A stretch of DNA of 55,361 bases from Acrocarpospora macrocephala. Its GTDB lineage: Bacteria > Actinomycetota > Actinomycetes > Streptosporangiales > Streptosporangiaceae. Positions within the stretch are counted from its first letter, which is position 1. Every line of letters begins with the position of its first letter. Of the stretch, positions 1 through 10,738 are shown in pieces. The stretch lies in the NCBI RefSeq assembly GCF_009687865.1, contig NZ_BLAE01000078.1, positions 1 to 55,361 of the forward strand, written 5' to 3'. The position numbers and the translations under genes are program-made. The notes below the pieces were generated by a model. It did no database searches, was not told the DNA's origin, and saw only the letters and a program-made list of their open reading frames with translations.

Positions 1-1077
1 GGTGGGGAGGGATTCGGCGCGGACCAGGACCAGCAGTTCGGTGGTGACCTTTTTGCTCAGCAGCGCTGACAGGGCGTCGGCTTGGCGGACCCGGAGTGGG
101 CGGTCGTCGTCTTTGCCTTTCGGCCGGGCGTAGGCGGCCAGGAACTCGCGCAGCCGGGCGCCGGCCTCCCGGGGCAGCCGGAACTCCCCCTCCACGCCGC
201 CGGTGCTGGACGGGCGGACCAGCAGGGAACGGGTGGCGTAGTCGGTTTCGGCGTCATCGTCCAGGGTGCCCGGGTCCAGCAGTTCACGCAGGTATCGCCC
301 GGCCTTGAGGATCTCGGCCGGGGAGGCGCTGTCGGCCAGGTCCAGCAGGATCGGCTCGGCCAGCGCCGCCTGCGCGTCGGTCAGGTGGGTGGTGACCTGG
401 CTGATCGCCTCGGCCGACCCCTCGGCGAGAGTACCGCGCGCCAGCCGGTCCCGGACGACAGGCAGGCGGGCCAGCTGGGTGGCCAGCCGGATCAGACGGG
501 ACGCGCCTCCTGCGGTCATGCCCGCCGAGGCACGCAGCCAGGTACCGGTGGAGGCGTGCCCGCCGCTGCCGGCACTCTTGGCCTCCCCGGTGGCGTGGAC
601 GCGTCCCACCCGGGCGGCGATCGCCGAGCTCAACCGGTCCTGGGCGAACAGCAGATCTTCCGTCTCGCCCACGCACAACCCGGCATCCTCGGGCAGGTCG
701 GTCGTCGCAATCCGGGAGGCGAGCTGCCGGAACGCGGCCACCAGCACCCCCGAACCCACCGGCTCGCCCGAGGGCTCCGACCCCGCCGAGCGGCCAGGAT
801 CGGTGGAGCGACCGGCGTCGGCCGAGCGGCCAGGGTCGGTGGAGGGGCCGGTGTCGGTGGAGCGGCTGTGGAGGAACTGATGCCGTGTGTTCTGCTGCCC
901 TGCGTCGCCGTATGTGTCGCTATGGGCGTCGTCGTGGGCGGAACGCTGGGGCGGGACGTAGTCAGGCGGGACGTAGTCAGGGTCCAGCACGGTGCCCTTC
1001 AGGAACGCGGGCAGCTCGCGTCCGCGGACGCCCTTCGCACGGGAGGGATCCCGCACGTCGATCGCAGACCCGAGCAT
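1..1077 (-). CDS. DUF222 / 13E12-repeat family protein, C-terminus cut by window edge
   Basis: An open frame runs from an ATG at 1077 leftwards to base 1 without a stop, giving at least 359 codons. A purine-rich ribosome-binding site (AAGGGGGGAG in gene sense) lies just upstream. Residues 1-110 are polar and contain a short degenerate repeat built on RSTDPGRSADAG. From about residue 115 the chain is alpha-helical and matches the DUF222 pattern: a segment ending in GMTAGGASRL, then helices around LPVVRDRLARGTLAEG and AEAISQV. Proteins of this family usually carry a C-terminal HNH nuclease domain, which would lie outside the window, so nuclease activity is inferred only. They are abundant, often multicopy genes in actinobacteria. 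The opposite strand is also open here but reads as low-complexity Gly/Arg/Pro. Confidence 0.8.
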   Translation of the reverse strand, partial: MLGSAIDVRDPSRAKGVRGRELPAFLKGTVLDPDYVPPDYVPPQRSAHDDAHSDTYGDAGQQNTRHQFLHSRSTDTGPSTDPGRSADAGRSTDPGRSAGSEPSGEPVGSGVLVAAFRQLASRIATTDLPEDAGLCVGETEDLLFAQDRLSSAIAARVGRVHATGEAKSAGSGGHASTGTWLRASAGMTAGGASRLIRLATQLARLPVVRDRLARGTLAEGSAEAISQVTTHLTDAQAALAEPILLDLADSASPAEILKAGRYLRELLDPGTLDDDAETDYATRSLLVRPSSTGGVEGEFRLPREAGARLREFLAAYARPKGKDDDRPLRVRQADALSALLSKKVTTELLVLVRAESLPT

Positions 1078-1562
1078 GAAGGCTCCCCCCTTTCTCTCCG
1101 GCGGATCCGAACAACCACCCTCACGCTATCGGGCGGCTATGACAAAACCTGGCCTTGATCCGCGACAAAACCGCAGGTCACGCTGCCGGTGAAAAGATCT
1201 ACCTACCCGCCACGATCCGAAGATCCATTCGCCACGCCCGATCAGGAGCAGCACACCAACCCACAGACCCTCAACCCGCGAAGAACAGGCCTAGCGGGTG
1301 GCCTCGCCCGTGATCCGCTGGCAGCCAGATCGGCAGCACTGACGACAGGATCAGTGCTGCCGCGTCCACGTTCACCACCGGTGCCTAGTTGGGTCTGAAC
1401 AGGTTCTCGAAAATTCAGATCGCCTTGGACAGGCCATCGACGATGGGCAGGACTATCGGCTACGTCATGGACGAATGGGACGAATAACTGTGCAGGTCGG
1501 GGCCGGGTAACGCCAAGGGCGGCCTCATTGATATCCCCCTGAAGCTAACTTCGAGGAGCGTC
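1078..1562. other. intergenic stretch with a decayed gene fragment
   Basis: This 485-base gap separates the divergent DUF222 gene and the ATPase gene. Its only recognisable content is the permease-gene remnant at 1291-1422, listed separately. The remaining sequence is less GC-biased than its surroundings. It should contain promoters for both flanking genes, but I see no confident -35/-10 pair. The ATPase gene has GAGGAG at 1553-1558, close to its GTG start. Confidence 0.5.
1291..1422 (-). pseudogene. decayed duplicate of the 3' end of the polyamine permease gene
   Basis: These 132 bases align base for base with 4278-4411, the last 40-odd codons of the permease gene, at roughly 84% identity by eye and in the same orientation. 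Read in the permease frame, the fragment carries a Trp-to-TGA change, a Gln-to-TAG change and a 2-base deletion near the end, so it cannot encode a functional tail. Similarity stops abruptly after ATCG at 1422 and at the gene's stop-codon end. It is therefore a displaced or duplicated gene end, and it forms a direct repeat with the intact gene on the other side of the two-gene ATPase cassette. Confidence 0.85.
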
Positions 1563-3887
1563 GTGTCCGAGACCTTGCGTGACCTGGTGACGGCCCGGCT
1601 CGCCGGCTCCTCGCTCGACCCCGCCGCGCAACGGATCATGTTGGAGGCGCTGGGGGAGGACGAGACGGGCCCAAGCCGTCCCATCCGGCGGGCGTACCTG
1701 CAGTCGGTGACGGTCAGTGGGTTTCGCGGCATCGGCCGTACGGCACGCCTCCCGCTCACGCCCCGTCCGGGGTTGACCCTGGTGGTGGGCCGGAACGGCA
1801 GCGGCAAATCCAGCTTCGCCGAAGCCGTGGAGATCGCGCTCACTGGTGACAATGCCCGCTGGAGCTCGAGGTCGGATATCTGGCGGCGGAGCTGGCGCAA
1901 CCTGCACGAGTCTGCGCCTCCGCAGGTTGCGGTGGAGCTGCTGCTGGAGGGCGACACTGAGCCGAGCACGGTATTGCGCGAGTGGACAGGCGAGGACGTG
2001 GGCGATTCCCGCGCTGAGGTGGAGCGGCCGGGCAGCGACCCGGTGCCGCTGGCTGAGCTGGGATGGGCGCCGGATCTGGCGCTGTACCGGCCGTTCCTGT
2101 CCTACTCTGAGCTCGGCCAGATGATCAGCGGCAAGCCGAGCGAAATGTACGACGCGGTCGCGACGATCCTGGGGCTGGAGCTGCTGGCCACCGCCGACAA
2201 GAACCTGCGCGACCGGGCCTCAGACCTGGAGAAGGTGATCAAGCAGGCCGACGCCGAACTGCCCGAGGTGGCGGACCTCGACGACCCGCGGGCCCAGGCG
2301 GCACAAGCCGTACTTCAAGCTAAGAAGAGGGACCTGGACCGTTTGGCCGAGCTGGTCGTGGGTGAGCACACCGTCGATGACGGCGAGCTGGCCCGGCTGC
2401 GGCGGCTGGCGGACCTGTCCGGACCGGACGTGGCTGTGGTCGAGCAGCGGGTGGCACGACTGCGTGCCGCTCTTGCCGCCGCGGAGCAGGTGCGGGGAAC
2501 GTCGGCGGAGGACGCGCGGCGGCGGGCCGAGCTGCTGGAGCGAGCGCTGGCGCACTTCTGCGGACAGGCGTGCCCGGTCTGCGGTGGTGAGCAGCTGGAT
2601 GAGGTGTGGGCTGGGCATGCTCATGACGAGGTGGCCAGACTGCGCGGAGAGGCTGCGGCTGCCGATGACGCGCGCCGGGAGCTGCGGTCCGCGGCACAAG
2701 CTGTACAGGACCTGGTGGAGAATCCGCCCGCCGGCGTGTCCTCCGAGGTGGGGGCGGCATGGGCGGCCTGCCGCACGCTCGACGATCCGGTCGCGCTGGC
2801 GCGGCAGGCGCCCATGGCAGCCATGGCAATGGCGGCCGCCTGCCGGGACGCGCGGGAGCAGGCGGTCAAGCGCTTGGCGGATCTGGACGGGCGGTGGAAG
2901 GAAACCGCGACGGCGCTGGCGGCGTGGCTGACGGTGGCCCGGCGAGCGGAGGCTGGCAGGCCGGAGCTGAAGCAGGTCAAGGCGGCGCGGAAGTGGCTTC
3001 GTGATGTCCACGATGAGCTGCGGGCCGAGCGGATGGCGCCGCTGGGAGAGACGTCCCAGCTGATCTGGAACTTGCTGCGGCAGCAGAGCAACGTGACGCT
3101 CGGGCCGGTCCAGCTCGCCGGTGCGGCCACCCAGCGGCGGGTGGTGATGGACGTGTCGGTGGACGATATCGAGGCGCCCGCGCTGGGGGTGATGAGCCAG
3201 GGTGAGTTGCACGCGCTCGCGCTGACGTTGTTCCTGCCGCGTGCGACGTCACGGCAGAGTCCGTTCAAGTTTTTGGTGATCGACGATCCGGTGCAGTCCA
3301 TGGATCCGGCCAAGGTGGATGGGCTGGCCCGAGTGCTGACGATGATCGCTGAGACCCGGCAGGTGGTCGTGTTCACCCATGACACACGGCTACCTCAGGC
3401 GTTGAAGTATCTGCGGCTGCCGGCGACCGTCGTCGAGGTGGTCCGCAAGGAACGGTCGGTGGTGGAGTTGAAGGAGTCCGACGATCCGGTGGCGCGGGCG
3501 CTGCGGGATGCGCGGGCGCTGGCCAAGCCGGGCAAGGTGCCCGCTGACGTGGTGCGGCACGTGTTGCCGGGACTCTGCCGTACCGCGCTGGAAGCGGCGT
3601 TCCTGGAGGTGGTGTGGCATCGGTTGCTGACCGCTGGGCGGGACCACGGGCTGGTGGAGCGGCAGATCGGCGACGCGCACAAGCTGACCGAGCTGGCCGC
3701 GCTGGCGTTGTTCGGGGACGCCTCGAAGTGGAGTCAGGTGCTGGGGGAGCTGAACCAGCGCTACGGCGGATGGGCGGCGGATCTGGTGGTGTTGTGCAAC
3801 AAGGCCACTCACCAGGCGGTCCGGTTCGACGATGTCGAGGAGTTGGTGCGTCAGACGGGTCGGCTGGCCAAGCTGGTGAGGGCGTGA
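1563..3887 (+). CDS. Rad50/RloC-like ABC ATPase with CPVC hook and C-terminal R-x3-E...H domain
   Basis: A 774-residue SMC/Rad50-type (AAA_23-like) ATPase with a GTG start behind GAGGAG. Walker A is GRNGSGKS at residues 76-83. Charged, coiled-coil-prone arms follow, with a CPVC motif at 337-340 that resembles a zinc hook. The ABC signature (MSQGEL) is near 544-549, and Walker B (FLVIDDP with Asp574-Asp575) precedes a switch-like FTHD. After the ATPase core there is a helical extension of about 130 residues with Arg673-x3-Glu677 and His750. Anticodon nucleases of the PrrC/RloC group combine this kind of ATPase, a hook (RloC) and an Arg/Glu/His active site, so an RNA-cleaving antiphage role is a reasonable inference. 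The Glu-His spacing (73) is longer than in PrrC, so this is not established. The stop overlaps the start of the next gene, indicating coupling. Confidence 0.75.
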   Translation: MSETLRDLVTARLAGSSLDPAAQRIMLEALGEDETGPSRPIRRAYLQSVTVSGFRGIGRTARLPLTPRPGLTLVVGRNGSGKSSFAEAVEIALTGDNARWSSRSDIWRRSWRNLHESAPPQVAVELLLEGDTEPSTVLREWTGEDVGDSRAEVERPGSDPVPLAELGWAPDLALYRPFLSYSELGQMISGKPSEMYDAVATILGLELLATADKNLRDRASDLEKVIKQADAELPEVADLDDPRAQAAQAVLQAKKRDLDRLAELVVGEHTVDDGELARLRRLADLSGPDVAVVEQRVARLRAALAAAEQVRGTSAEDARRRAELLERALAHFCGQACPVCGGEQLDEVWAGHAHDEVARLRGEAAAADDARRELRSAAQAVQDLVENPPAGVSSEVGAAWAACRTLDDPVALARQAPMAAMAMAAACRDAREQAVKRLADLDGRWKETATALAAWLTVARRAEAGRPELKQVKAARKWLRDVHDELRAERMAPLGETSQLIWNLLRQQSNVTLGPVQLAGAATQRRVVMDVSVDDIEAPALGVMSQGELHALALTLFLPRATSRQSPFKFLVIDDPVQSMDPAKVDGLARVLTMIAETRQVVVFTHDTRLPQALKYLRLPATVVEVVRKERSVVELKESDDPVARALRDARALAKPGKVPADVVRHVLPGLCRTALEAAFLEVVWHRLLTAGRDHGLVERQIGDAHKLTELAALALFGDASKWSQVLGELNQRYGGWAADLVVLCNKATHQAVRFDDVEELVRQTGRLAKLVRA

Positions 3888-4231
3888 TGACCGCGCTGGC
3901 GCTGCTGAGCTCGGCCGATCAGCTGCTGGGTCAGACGGTGGGCGTGTGGCCGCGGCCTGCGGCTTTGCTGTTGCGGTTGTCGCTCGAGCATGGCTTGCGG
4001 GAGTACTTTCAGCGCGTCCGGCCCGAGCTGAACAAGTGCACGATGCTGGAGCAGATGCTCTGCCTGGAGGCGTATGCCGGGTCCGGGGTGGCCCGGCAGT
4101 GTGCCATCTTGTGGTCGGGACTGAGCCAGGCGTGTCACTATCACGCCTACGAGTTGTCGCCGACGCCGGGTGAGTTGGGGCGCTGGCGGGAGGAGGTCGC
4201 TGCGGTGCTCAGGCTTCTGGGTACATCGTGA
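3887..4231 (+). CDS. small helical partner of the ATPase, resembling its C-terminal domain
   Basis: A 114-residue protein whose ATG overlaps the TGA of the ATPase gene (ATGA-type coupling), so the two are probably made together. It appears fully alpha-helical and has no signal peptide. Arg30-x3-Glu34 followed by Cys83, His84 and His86 parallels Arg673-x3-Glu677 and Cys744...His750 of the ATPase tail. Surrounding segments align by eye as well: LLLRLSLEHGLREYF against LCRTALEAAFLEVVW, and a helix rich in Leu/Glu before a Trp. I infer a stand-alone HEPN-like or related domain acting as toxin, regulator or dimer partner. I do not recognise a named family, so the function is open. Confidence 0.65.
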   Translation: MTALALLSSADQLLGQTVGVWPRPAALLLRLSLEHGLREYFQRVRPELNKCTMLEQMLCLEAYAGSGVARQCAILWSGLSQACHYHAYELSPTPGELGRWREEVAAVLRLLGTS

Positions 4232-4274
4232 ACTTCTCCTTTTGCGCTGCTCTCGAGAACCGTCCCGCGGGCGG

Positions 4275-5072
4275 CTAATAGCGGGTGGCCTCTCCGCTGA
4301 TCCGCTGGGCCAGCCAGATCGGCAGCACCGACAGCAGGATGAGCGCCGCCGCGACCACGTTCACCACCGGCGCCTGGTTGGGCCGGAACAGGTTCTCGAA
4401 GATCCAGATCGGGAGGGTGCGCACCCCCGCCCCGGCCGTGAACGTGGTCACGATGATCTCGTCGAAGGACAGCGCGAACGCCAGCAGCCCGCCCGCCAGC
4501 AGCGCCGACCGCATCATCGGGAACGTCACCAGGCGGAACGTGGTGAACGTGTCCGCCCCCAGGTCCGCCGACGCCTCCTCAATGGACACCCCGAGCCGCC
4601 GCAGCCGGGCCAGCACGTTGTTGTAGACCGTCACCACGCAGAACGTGGCATGCCCGACGATCACCGTGAACAGCCCGAGCGGCACCCCCAGCACCGAGTG
4701 GAAGGTGTTGCTGAGCGCGATCCCAGTCACGATGCCCGGCAGCGCGATCGGCAGCACGATCAGCAGCGACACCGTCTCCCGGCCGAAGAACGTGTGCCGC
4801 TGCACCGCGAACGCCGCCAGCGTGCCCAGCAGCAGCGCGATCAGCGTCGCCCCCGAGGCGGCCTGCACCGATGTCCACAGCGCCTCGCGCATGCCGGTGG
4901 AACGCCAGGCCGCCGCCCACCAGTCGAAGGTGAAGCCGGGCGGCGGCCAGCCGAACGTGCGGTCGGCGTTGAACGAGTTGAGCACCACCACGGCCAGCGG
5001 CACGTAGATCACGGCCAGCCCGGCCGCGAGGGCCGCCCACAGCGCGGCGCGAGCCGTACGAGACAGGTTCAC
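4275..5072 (-). CDS. potC: polyamine-type ABC transporter permease (PotC-like)
   Basis: A 265-residue inner-membrane permease with about six hydrophobic segments, the length usual for PotC. The EAA-type loop reads EEASADLGADTFTTF, and a typical stretch LSFDEIIVTTF follows. The GTG start at 5072 overlaps the TGA of the upstream permease by four bases (GTGA), which fixes the start; the frame stays open further upstream but loses membrane character. It is the last gene of the binding-protein/permease/ATPase operon. Its 3' end (4278-4411) is repeated as a pseudogene fragment at 1291-1422. Substrate is inferred as spermidine/putrescine or a related amine from family resemblance. Confidence 0.85.
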   Translation of the reverse strand: MNLSRTARAALWAALAAGLAVIYVPLAVVVLNSFNADRTFGWPPPGFTFDWWAAAWRSTGMREALWTSVQAASGATLIALLLGTLAAFAVQRHTFFGRETVSLLIVLPIALPGIVTGIALSNTFHSVLGVPLGLFTVIVGHATFCVVTVYNNVLARLRRLGVSIEEASADLGADTFTTFRLVTFPMMRSALLAGGLLAFALSFDEIIVTTFTAGAGVRTLPIWIFENLFRPNQAPVVNVVAAALILLSVLPIWLAQRISGEATRY

Positions 5073-7124: not shown

Positions 7125-8144
7125 CTAGACGATCGCGAACTCGTGGCGGCGGTGCCACACGAGCCGGACCCTGGTGCCGCGCAGGCCCATCACGTCCATG
7201 GACGAGACCTGCAGGTTCTGCTGGAGGGCGATGAGCCGCCCGCCCGCGTCCAGATCCACCACGAACCGGGTGGCGGGCCCGGCGTAGACGACCTCGGTGA
7301 CCAGGCCGGTGGCGCTGTGCTCGCCGTCCCCGACGGTTTCGTCCGGCGGCGCGACGCGCAGCTTCTCGGGGCGGACGCTGAACGTGCCGTCCTTGCCGAG
7401 CACGGCCTGCGCCGCCTCGCCCGAGATCAGGTTGGAGGTGCCCACGAAACCGGCCACGAACGCGCTGGCCGGTCGCTCGTACACCTCGGCCGGGGTGCCG
7501 ACCTGTTCGACCCGGCCGTGGTTGAACACCGCGACCCGGTCGCTCATGGTCAGCGCCTCCTCCTGGTCGTGGGTGACGAACAGGAACGTGATGCCTACCT
7601 CGCGCTGGATCGCCTTCAGCTCGACCTGCATCTCCTCGCGTAACTTCAGGTCGAGCGCGCCGAGCGGCTCGTCAAGCAGCAGCACCCGGGGGCGGTTGAC
7701 CAGGGCGCGGGCCAGCGCCACGCGCTGCCGCTGGCCGCCGGAGAGCTCGCCGGGCCGCCGTTTGCCGAAGCCCTCCAGGCGGACCGTGGCGAGAGCTTCG
7801 AGGGCTTTCTCGCGGCGGTTGGGGACCTTCTTGACGCGCAGGCCGTACTCGACGTTCTGCAGCACGCTCATGTGCGGGAACAGGGCGTAGTCCTGGAAGA
7901 CGGTGTTCACGTCCCGCTCGAAGGGCGCCAGCCGGGTGACGTCCCGGCCGCCGAGCTCGACGGTTCCGGCGGTGGGGGTCTCGAAACCGGCGATCATCCG
8001 CAGCACGGTGGTCTTGCCGCTGCCCGACGGGCCGAGCATCGCGAAGAACTCGCCGTCCGCGACGCCCAGGTCCACACCCGCGACCGCCTCGACGCTCCCG
8101 AAGCTCTTGCGCAGCCCGCGCAGGGCCACCGCTTGGTCTGCCAT
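7125..8144 (-). CDS. potA: polyamine-type ABC transporter ATPase (PotA-like)
   Basis: A 339-residue ATPase with Walker [10 protein letters not shown], signature [15 protein letters not shown] and Walker [15 protein letters not shown]-terminal region of about 100 residues is consistent with a TOBE_2 regulatory domain. It energises the importer encoded downstream. Two in-frame ATGs exist, at 8156 and 8144. I prefer 8144 (MADQ) because a -10-like TATGTT at 8157-8152 ends seven bases before it, consistent with a leaderless message, and the 8156 ATG would lie inside that hexamer. An inverted repeat overlaps this promoter. Confidence 0.85.
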
Positions 8145-10084: not shown

Positions 10085-10620
10085 ATCCCGCCCGGCGCGT
10101 GATCTCGCTCTGGCTGGCCGTCTGCGCCGCCGGATCGGGGCTCACGCTGCTCGCCGCGAGCCGGGACTGGGCGGTGCTGACCTTCGACGTCACCGCCCCC
10201 AACCTGCCCACCCTGACCCTCACCGGCGGCGAAGTCGCGGCCTCACTCACGCCGGTGGCCCTCGCCGCCCTGGCCGGATCCGTCGCCGTGCTCGCCGCCC
10301 GCGGCGTCTGGCGCTCCGTCCTGGCGGGACTGATCGCCCTGTGCGGCGCGGCGATCGTGCTGGCGTCCCTGCGCGCCTGGGGCGACCTCGCCCCCGAGGG
10401 CAGCGCCGCGGCCACCACCGAGCTCACCCCGTGGCCTCTGGTCGCCGTCGCCGGAGGAGGGCTCCTGATCCTTTCCGGCCTGTACGCGACCCTCCGCGCC
10501 ACCCGATGGGCGAGCCCGGCACGCGGAAGCCGTACCCCGATGAGGCCATCGGGAGAGCGAGAGTTGTGGGACGCTCTGGACGCGGGACTAGACCCGACCG
10601 AATCCGACGAGCATCGTTGA
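10081..10620 (+). CDS. Trp-region conserved membrane protein (TIGR02234-type)
   Basis: A 179-residue membrane protein with about four hydrophobic segments. The first is [20 protein letters not shown], followed by DWAVLTF; that pairing and the location between hisI and trpC match the actinobacterial Trp-associated membrane protein family. Its biochemical role is unknown. The ATG overlaps the hisI stop, so the genes are translationally coupled. The C-terminal tail after residue 145 is charged and probably cytoplasmic. Confidence 0.8.
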
Positions 10621-10738
10621 CAAGCGGGCCACGCCTGGTCACAAATTGTCCACACCTTGAGCGTATTTCCCAAGTAATCAGAGCAAATCGCTAGGCTGCG
10701 CCCCGCACCTCTCACGATGACCGCTAGGAGTCATTCAC

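Follow-up and report, generated by a model that had tools for sequence, protein, structure and literature searches.

A Rad50-like ATPase gene pair between two copies of a potC-like gene end in Acrocarpospora macrocephala, and how it may have come there

How does a two-gene cassette come to lie between two copies of the end of a permease gene, with the gene itself left open? The question is raised by the stretch of DNA analysed here (the window), which is the whole of positions 1 to 55,361, or 55,361 nucleotides, of contig NZ_BLAE01000078.1 of Acrocarpospora macrocephala. Contig C78 of this genome (G000; 12.1 Mb in 166 contigs) begins with the window. Near its beginning, a gene for a Rad50/SMC-like ATPase and a small partner gene stand between an intact potC-like permease gene, called potC below, and a decayed second copy of its 3' end. 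The account that fits best, and which we consider fairly probable, is that foreign DNA carrying the cassette and a truncated potC end recombined homologously with the resident potC.

Two copies of one gene end

The two copies, 1291-1422 and 4279-4411, align in the same orientation with 86.5% identity over 133 columns (expect value, E, 3e-40), and the repeat is also recovered by an ungapped comparison. The last letters that they share are CAGATCG, ending at 1422 and 4411 respectively, and the stop codon of the intact copy lies at 4275-4277. In the reading frame of potC, the first copy (the remnant) contains one TGA and one TAG, together with a 2-base deletion (GCTGG--CAGCC). A preliminary description of this DNA had pointed to the direct repeat, the two nonsense changes and the deletion, all of which the alignment confirms. 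It had also proposed that the ATPase and its partner exactly fill the space between the copies; they do lie there, but two spacers, here called Y and X, flank the cassette block. The features are listed below, G004 being the genome of a sister species and contigs being numbered within each genome.

1-1077, minus strand: 5' part of a DUF222 gene (Pfam PF02720, E 4.7e-12); contig C78 begins inside the gene
1079-1290, no strand: conserved DUF222 upstream region, whose last 112 bp adjoin potC in G004:C5 too
1291-1422, minus strand: original potC 3' end, displaced and decayed (DUF222-tail-Y junction)
1331-1362, no strand: perfect 12-bp inverted repeat with an 8-bp spacer, inside the remnant (repeat scan)
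1423-1461, no strand: Y spacer (39 bp), whose start is common to G004:C101, beside the potC-tail copy there
1462-4231, plus strand: cassette block, with ~89% identity to Planotetraspora sp. A-T 1434 (G062:C69)
1563-3887, plus strand: Rad50/SMC-like ATPase, 774 amino acids (Pfam SMC_N, E 4e-15; AAA_21; AAA_23)
3887-4231, plus strand: partner, 114 amino acids, with a HEPN-like fold in the structure model; its ATG at 3887 overlaps the ATPase stop
4232-4274, no strand: X spacer (43 bp) between partner and potC, with a weak likeness to G004:C101
4275-4411, minus strand: restored potC 3' end, an allele ending in tyrosine and TAG and without the DUF222 junction (allele comparison)
4275-5072, minus strand: intact potC-like permease gene, 265 amino acids; its best NCBIfam match is PotC, at 160 bits, below the cut-off of 326 for that model

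Same-strand repeats were also sought between the flanks (at most 3 kb, and less in a few cases) of 93 loci carrying the gene pair. These are the window, 13 loci from its family and 79 kept from a scan in which each species was represented by one genome, which gave at least 563 confirmed stretches related to the ATPase; at least two places are counted twice (L149/L207 and L151/L181). A same-strand flank repeat of any kind is found at 8 of the 93, the window included, and the window has the only one that is both tight and strong (E 4e-41), which argues that it did not arise by chance. The idea that a repeat is a property of the gene pair was discarded. The seven other cases are McrB- and McrC-like paralogues, named by eye (L229 and L221), short repeats (L202, L204, L212 and L218), or the 51-nucleotide repeat at L209. 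In the same sense, the nearest relative of the cassette, in G062, lies at an unrelated site that has no potC tail. The preliminary description had named the pair at unrelated sites without the repeat as evidence against its proposal, and as regards the repeat belonging to the pair, this is what was found.

A side observation concerns L209, from a Frankia alni bin. Here a 51-nucleotide direct repeat of 76% identity (7498-7548 and 10604-10654) brackets the gene pair, its copies being ~270 bp and 4 bp away from it, and the upstream copy has CCGCGGAAC/GTTCCGCGG arms.

Four junctions in two sister species

The sample of the genus comprises five genomes, G000 to G004, including that of the window. 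In G001, G002 and G003, potC converges with an ABC (ATP-binding cassette) exporter gene within ~20 bp, with neither DUF222 nor a cassette between them. In G004, on contig C5, the DUF222 upstream region runs with its last 112 bp up to an intact potC; the stop codon of this gene is made at the DUF222 junction, exactly as in the remnant of the window. Because it shares this junction with an intact gene, the remnant is, on sequence comparison, the old potC end in its old place. The view of 1291-1422 as a displaced original, taken in the preliminary description, is thereby supported. The present potC end of the window is a different allele without the DUF222 junction: it is one codon longer (tyrosine, then TAG) and is flanked by X.

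A second locus in G004, on contig C101, has the order DUF222, ~45 bp of potC tail, ~100 bp ending in an X-like sequence, a 131-bp tail and Y. The likeness between its Y and that of the window was reached by none of 2000 shuffles. Four junctions are thus documented across two sister species, namely DUF222-tail-potC (G004:C5), X-tail-Y (G004:C101), and DUF222-tail-Y and X-tail-potC (both in the window). This is the set that would result if a potC end on a circle or tandem repeat crossed over with a resident potC.

The proposed course of events is as follows. The foreign DNA would have held the two-gene cassette beside the truncated 3' end (131 bp) of a related potC, the broken inner end of which was joined to Y. 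A circle or a tandem repeat containing X-tail-Y would then have crossed over once with DUF222-tail-potC. One of the hybrid tails would have stayed beside DUF222 and decayed, while the other would have given potC its working end, and at least one further exchange of allele within potC may have followed. The circular state of the incoming DNA and ordinary recombination as the agent would both be parts of this scheme. After the insertion potC is open, with 265 codons, and its end is restored. No recombinase or integrase was found by Pfam in the two genes of the cassette or in ten other reading frames of the insert, which gave no Pfam match of any kind, in agreement with the preliminary description, whose alternative, a cassette moved by recombination, is a better reading than the integrative element that it put first. 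If so, the locus shows how a gene pair of defence type can come to sit at the end of a transporter gene, which stays open, with no integrase taking part. No clear donor genus for the imported potC end emerged among 30 loci.

Ku, which serves in end joining, is present in all five genomes of the genus. A comparable insertion has been made in Escherichia coli, for which the consulted parts of the report describe cut linear DNA with one homologous end that, as its authors conclude, was trimmed, recircularised and integrated by a single crossing-over; of 60 clones, 56 had the duplication by the polymerase chain reaction, and in the 14 that were sequenced it covered 109-950 bp of the gene end (PMC3240628). 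As described there, a complete and a truncated copy of one gene end enclose the foreign DNA, as they do here; the 131 bp of the window fall within the reported range, and no dedicated recombinase is involved. The present case differs from that account in being natural, old and decayed, in the exchange of diverged alleles, and in having a copy of its junction at another locus in a sister species.

Two further fragments of the potC tail were observed. In the window's own genome, a decayed 3' fragment of 122 residues (G000:C69:62999-63357) is joined to another DUF222 copy, and the DUF222-potC junction itself has therefore been copied elsewhere. In G004, a lone 52-bp fragment (G004:C7:287320-287371; L090 5321-5372) starts approximately where the fragment C101a stops.

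Scattered fragments of this kind, of varied length and in both G000 and G004, show that the segment gets duplicated, and they could point to an origin in which the potC end was first duplicated in tandem on the spot and the cassette entered between the copies later. This is very unlikely, and we disfavour it. The copies differ in their outer flanks and in their alleles, both types of flank recur in G004, and two unrelated events would be required.

The surroundings of the locus continue on another contig of G000. Contig C24 breaks off 264 bp beyond a stretch matching the ABC exporter (identified by Pfam ABC_membrane and ABC_tran in the G004 copy), in sequence that resembles the 3' region of other DUF222 copies, and on this likeness C24 probably closes with the other end of the window's DUF222 gene. 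Since C24 ends with the exporter neighbour and DUF222 3'-type sequence, and C78 starts inside DUF222, the likely order across the presumed C24-C78 join is exporter, DUF222, potC remnant, cassette, potC.

Allele history and competing accounts

The tails of G004:C5 and G004:C101 differ at 16 aligned positions (4293-4385). Seven of these have the same state in both copies of the window, and the remnant agrees with neither contig at 4383. This leaves eight tail sites that can be classified, seven of which fit a single switch between 4297 and 4341. In a second test of the markers, the fragment on G000:C69 was used as a record of the resident allele. Over 4497-4620 it sides with the window at seven of the nine sites where the window and G004:C5 differ. 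These seven comprise 4557 and 4566, where the window and C69 have derived states in common, four changes found only in G004, and 4497, which is common to G004 and G003. Site 4326 has three states. The contrast in grouping between the two stretches gives a Fisher p of 0.023, which is optimistic, the sites being clustered.

Several observations weigh against homologous recombination in the simple form given above. Site 4371 contradicts a single switch. Over 4293-4422 the C69 fragment agrees with G004:C5, and not with the window, at eight of ten two-state sites; had there been one crossover only, at 4297-4341, resident states would be expected at 4371 and at 4416-4422, and they are not seen. In all, five marker sites, probably representing two events, misfit one clean crossover. 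The X of the window is only weakly like that of G004:C101 (16 of 2000 shuffles were as good), and the X-tail-Y junction there stands without a cassette. G004 has a listed contamination of 7%, a worry tempered by the fact that the aldehyde-dehydrogenase gene on C101 has no other strong match within G004. Finally, LigD_N was found in none of the five genomes of the genus, by a search that was positive in 1 of 14 control genomes.

Taken on their sequences, the alleles suggest that the intact potC end looks foreign, the foreign stretch reaching to at least 4422. More than one exchange is likely, because of the five sites that misfit, and either a second exchange or the import of an already bracketed allele would account for 4371 and 4416-4422. 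In the latter case, the cassette would have been bracketed by potC tails already in a relative, and would have entered by a double crossover, on the left in the DUF222-side tail and on the right in potC between 4422 and 4557. Such an import would explain the haplotype switch, as well as why the outer half of the remnant is native, and is compatible with the homologous recombination described above having occurred in the donor. It is nonetheless unlikely: no donor is found among the five genomes, an earlier event would still be needed to make the repeat, and the upstream resident signal consists mainly of two shared derived sites (4557 and 4566).

Integrative elements that enter the 3' ends of genes restore them, and the window shares with such elements its direct repeats, the restored end, the displaced original and the four types of junction. 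A rival account is a site-specific element whose integrase was lost or acted in trans, with the potC 3' end as the bacterial attachment site (attB), the palindrome at 1331-1362 as the core, and G004:C101 as the element's own site (attP) or the relic of a tandem element. The four junctions can indeed be read as attB, attP, attL and attR, and the perfect 12-8-12 inverted repeat falls in the interval of the switch; perfect palindromes of this form occur at five places in the window and in none of ten simulated windows. In G004, moreover, the tail of C101a stops, and the fragment on C7 starts, at the left arm of the palindrome. However, the insert yielded no integrase, intact copies of potC have the palindrome in imperfect form only, and the homology extends ~60 bp beyond the putative core, which such an element does not require. 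Site 4371 and the cluster 4416-4422 also speak against it.

Recurrent use of the site was not seen either. When the potC tail was searched for in 200 genomes of the family, with up to four candidates scored per genome, 113 had a match of some kind, which in 48 was strong (E 1e-10 or better). Of these 48, only two, G000 and G004, had a second strong copy. In this sample, then, the potC end was not seen to be a recurrent integration hot spot, with no sign of its reuse outside G000 and G004. The dedicated integrative element suggested in the preliminary description loses ground on three counts, namely the insert in which no integrase was found, the potC end that does not recur in the sample, and the pair found elsewhere without the repeat. 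We regard the site-specific element as improbable. A bolder form of it, which we hold to be slightly less probable still, would make the potC 3' end a genuine attachment site, used by a minimal defence cassette that has no integrase, with X-tail-Y as attP and the palindrome as core; a recombinase of the host or a helper would carry the ATPase-HEPN cargo into and out of the site, and the scattered tail fragments of G000 and G004 would be what it left behind.

The gene pair and the DUF222 repeats

The partner gene stands directly downstream of the ATPase gene in 92 of the 93 loci, the exception being L219, and the pair is a conserved two-gene system. The ATPase model has a mean confidence (predicted local distance difference test, pLDDT) of 87, and its fold matches include SMC/Rad50 heads and Lamassu chains. 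Against the PADLOC profiles it matches mad3 (E 1.5e-19) and LmuB (E 1.9e-19), in both cases partially, and its last 134 residues have no Pfam match above the cut-off. It thus resembles Lamassu LmuB and SMC-like defence ATPases, whereas its partner lies outside the PADLOC families, with no Pfam match either. The partner model (pLDDT 94) has as its best matches in the PDB the HEPN structures 2q00, 2hsb and 1ufb, with a probability of 0.99-1.00, a template modelling (TM) score of ~0.7 and weak E of 0.1-0.4. Of 37 aligned partners, 13 have the motif RX4HXY and 32 have H.Y in the same stretch. The partner in the window does not match the Rx4-6H motif, having glutamine in place of the arginine; the parts of PMC3710099 consulted describe a HEPN family without this arginine.

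The same parts describe PrrC and RloC, in which a Rad50-like ATPase controls a HEPN RNase and of which PrrC is found beside a restriction system (PMC3710099). On that description, the pair has in common with them a Rad50-like ATPase, a HEPN fold and, for some of its relatives, a position beside restriction genes. It differs in that the HEPN-like fold is on a separate gene and, as far as Pfam shows without a separate fold search of the last 134 residues, not fused to the ATPase, in the glutamine, and in being known from genes and models. The pair is probably an ATPase-HEPN defence module, in which the ATPase may act as a sensor controlling a HEPN-fold effector against phages.

The nearest neighbours of 77 loci gave 119 proteins, those above 900 amino acids or beyond a limit on total length being left out. 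Pfam identified among them eight N6 methylases, four GmrSD and two McrBC proteins, and the defence model mad2 matched nine; these counts, which stand without a background set, are suggestive of a defence-gene neighbourhood. Directly beside the pair in the window stand the genes for DUF222 and potC. No tRNA targets were found in ten loci scanned, and by eye no third small gene is conserved in 20 regions upstream of the ATPase. The pair had no match on phages at E 1e-10, and was found on plasmids in three records at E 1e-30. Relatives of the ATPase (E 1e-30) occur in 92 of 297 genomes of the family, many covering only approximately the first 640 residues. In the Planotetraspora cassette, which over 1462-4231 has a gap in the ATPase, that gene is without approximately residues 304-382 and is split over two reading frames (L149 8253-8283). 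Our literature searches found neither the two-gene system nor an insertion at potC described. The Rad50-like ATPase and HEPN-fold pair, which is frequent among actinobacteria and in some cases adjoins restriction genes, is a testable candidate for defence.

In both G000 and G004, the DUF222 genes are a family of repeats at scattered places, and their upstream region is conserved. In G000, copies lie on contigs C35, C14, C21, C57, C33, C7, C38, C110, C61 and C69 (L076-L083, L089 and L009). In the parts of PMC10589994 consulted, DUF222 appears only as a repeat class. The idea that DUF222 is a mobile unit with cleanly fixed ends was rejected, the upstream boundary being different among the 18 places compared. 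Several of the copies share one flanking stretch, which presumably resembles a transposase end in its motif.

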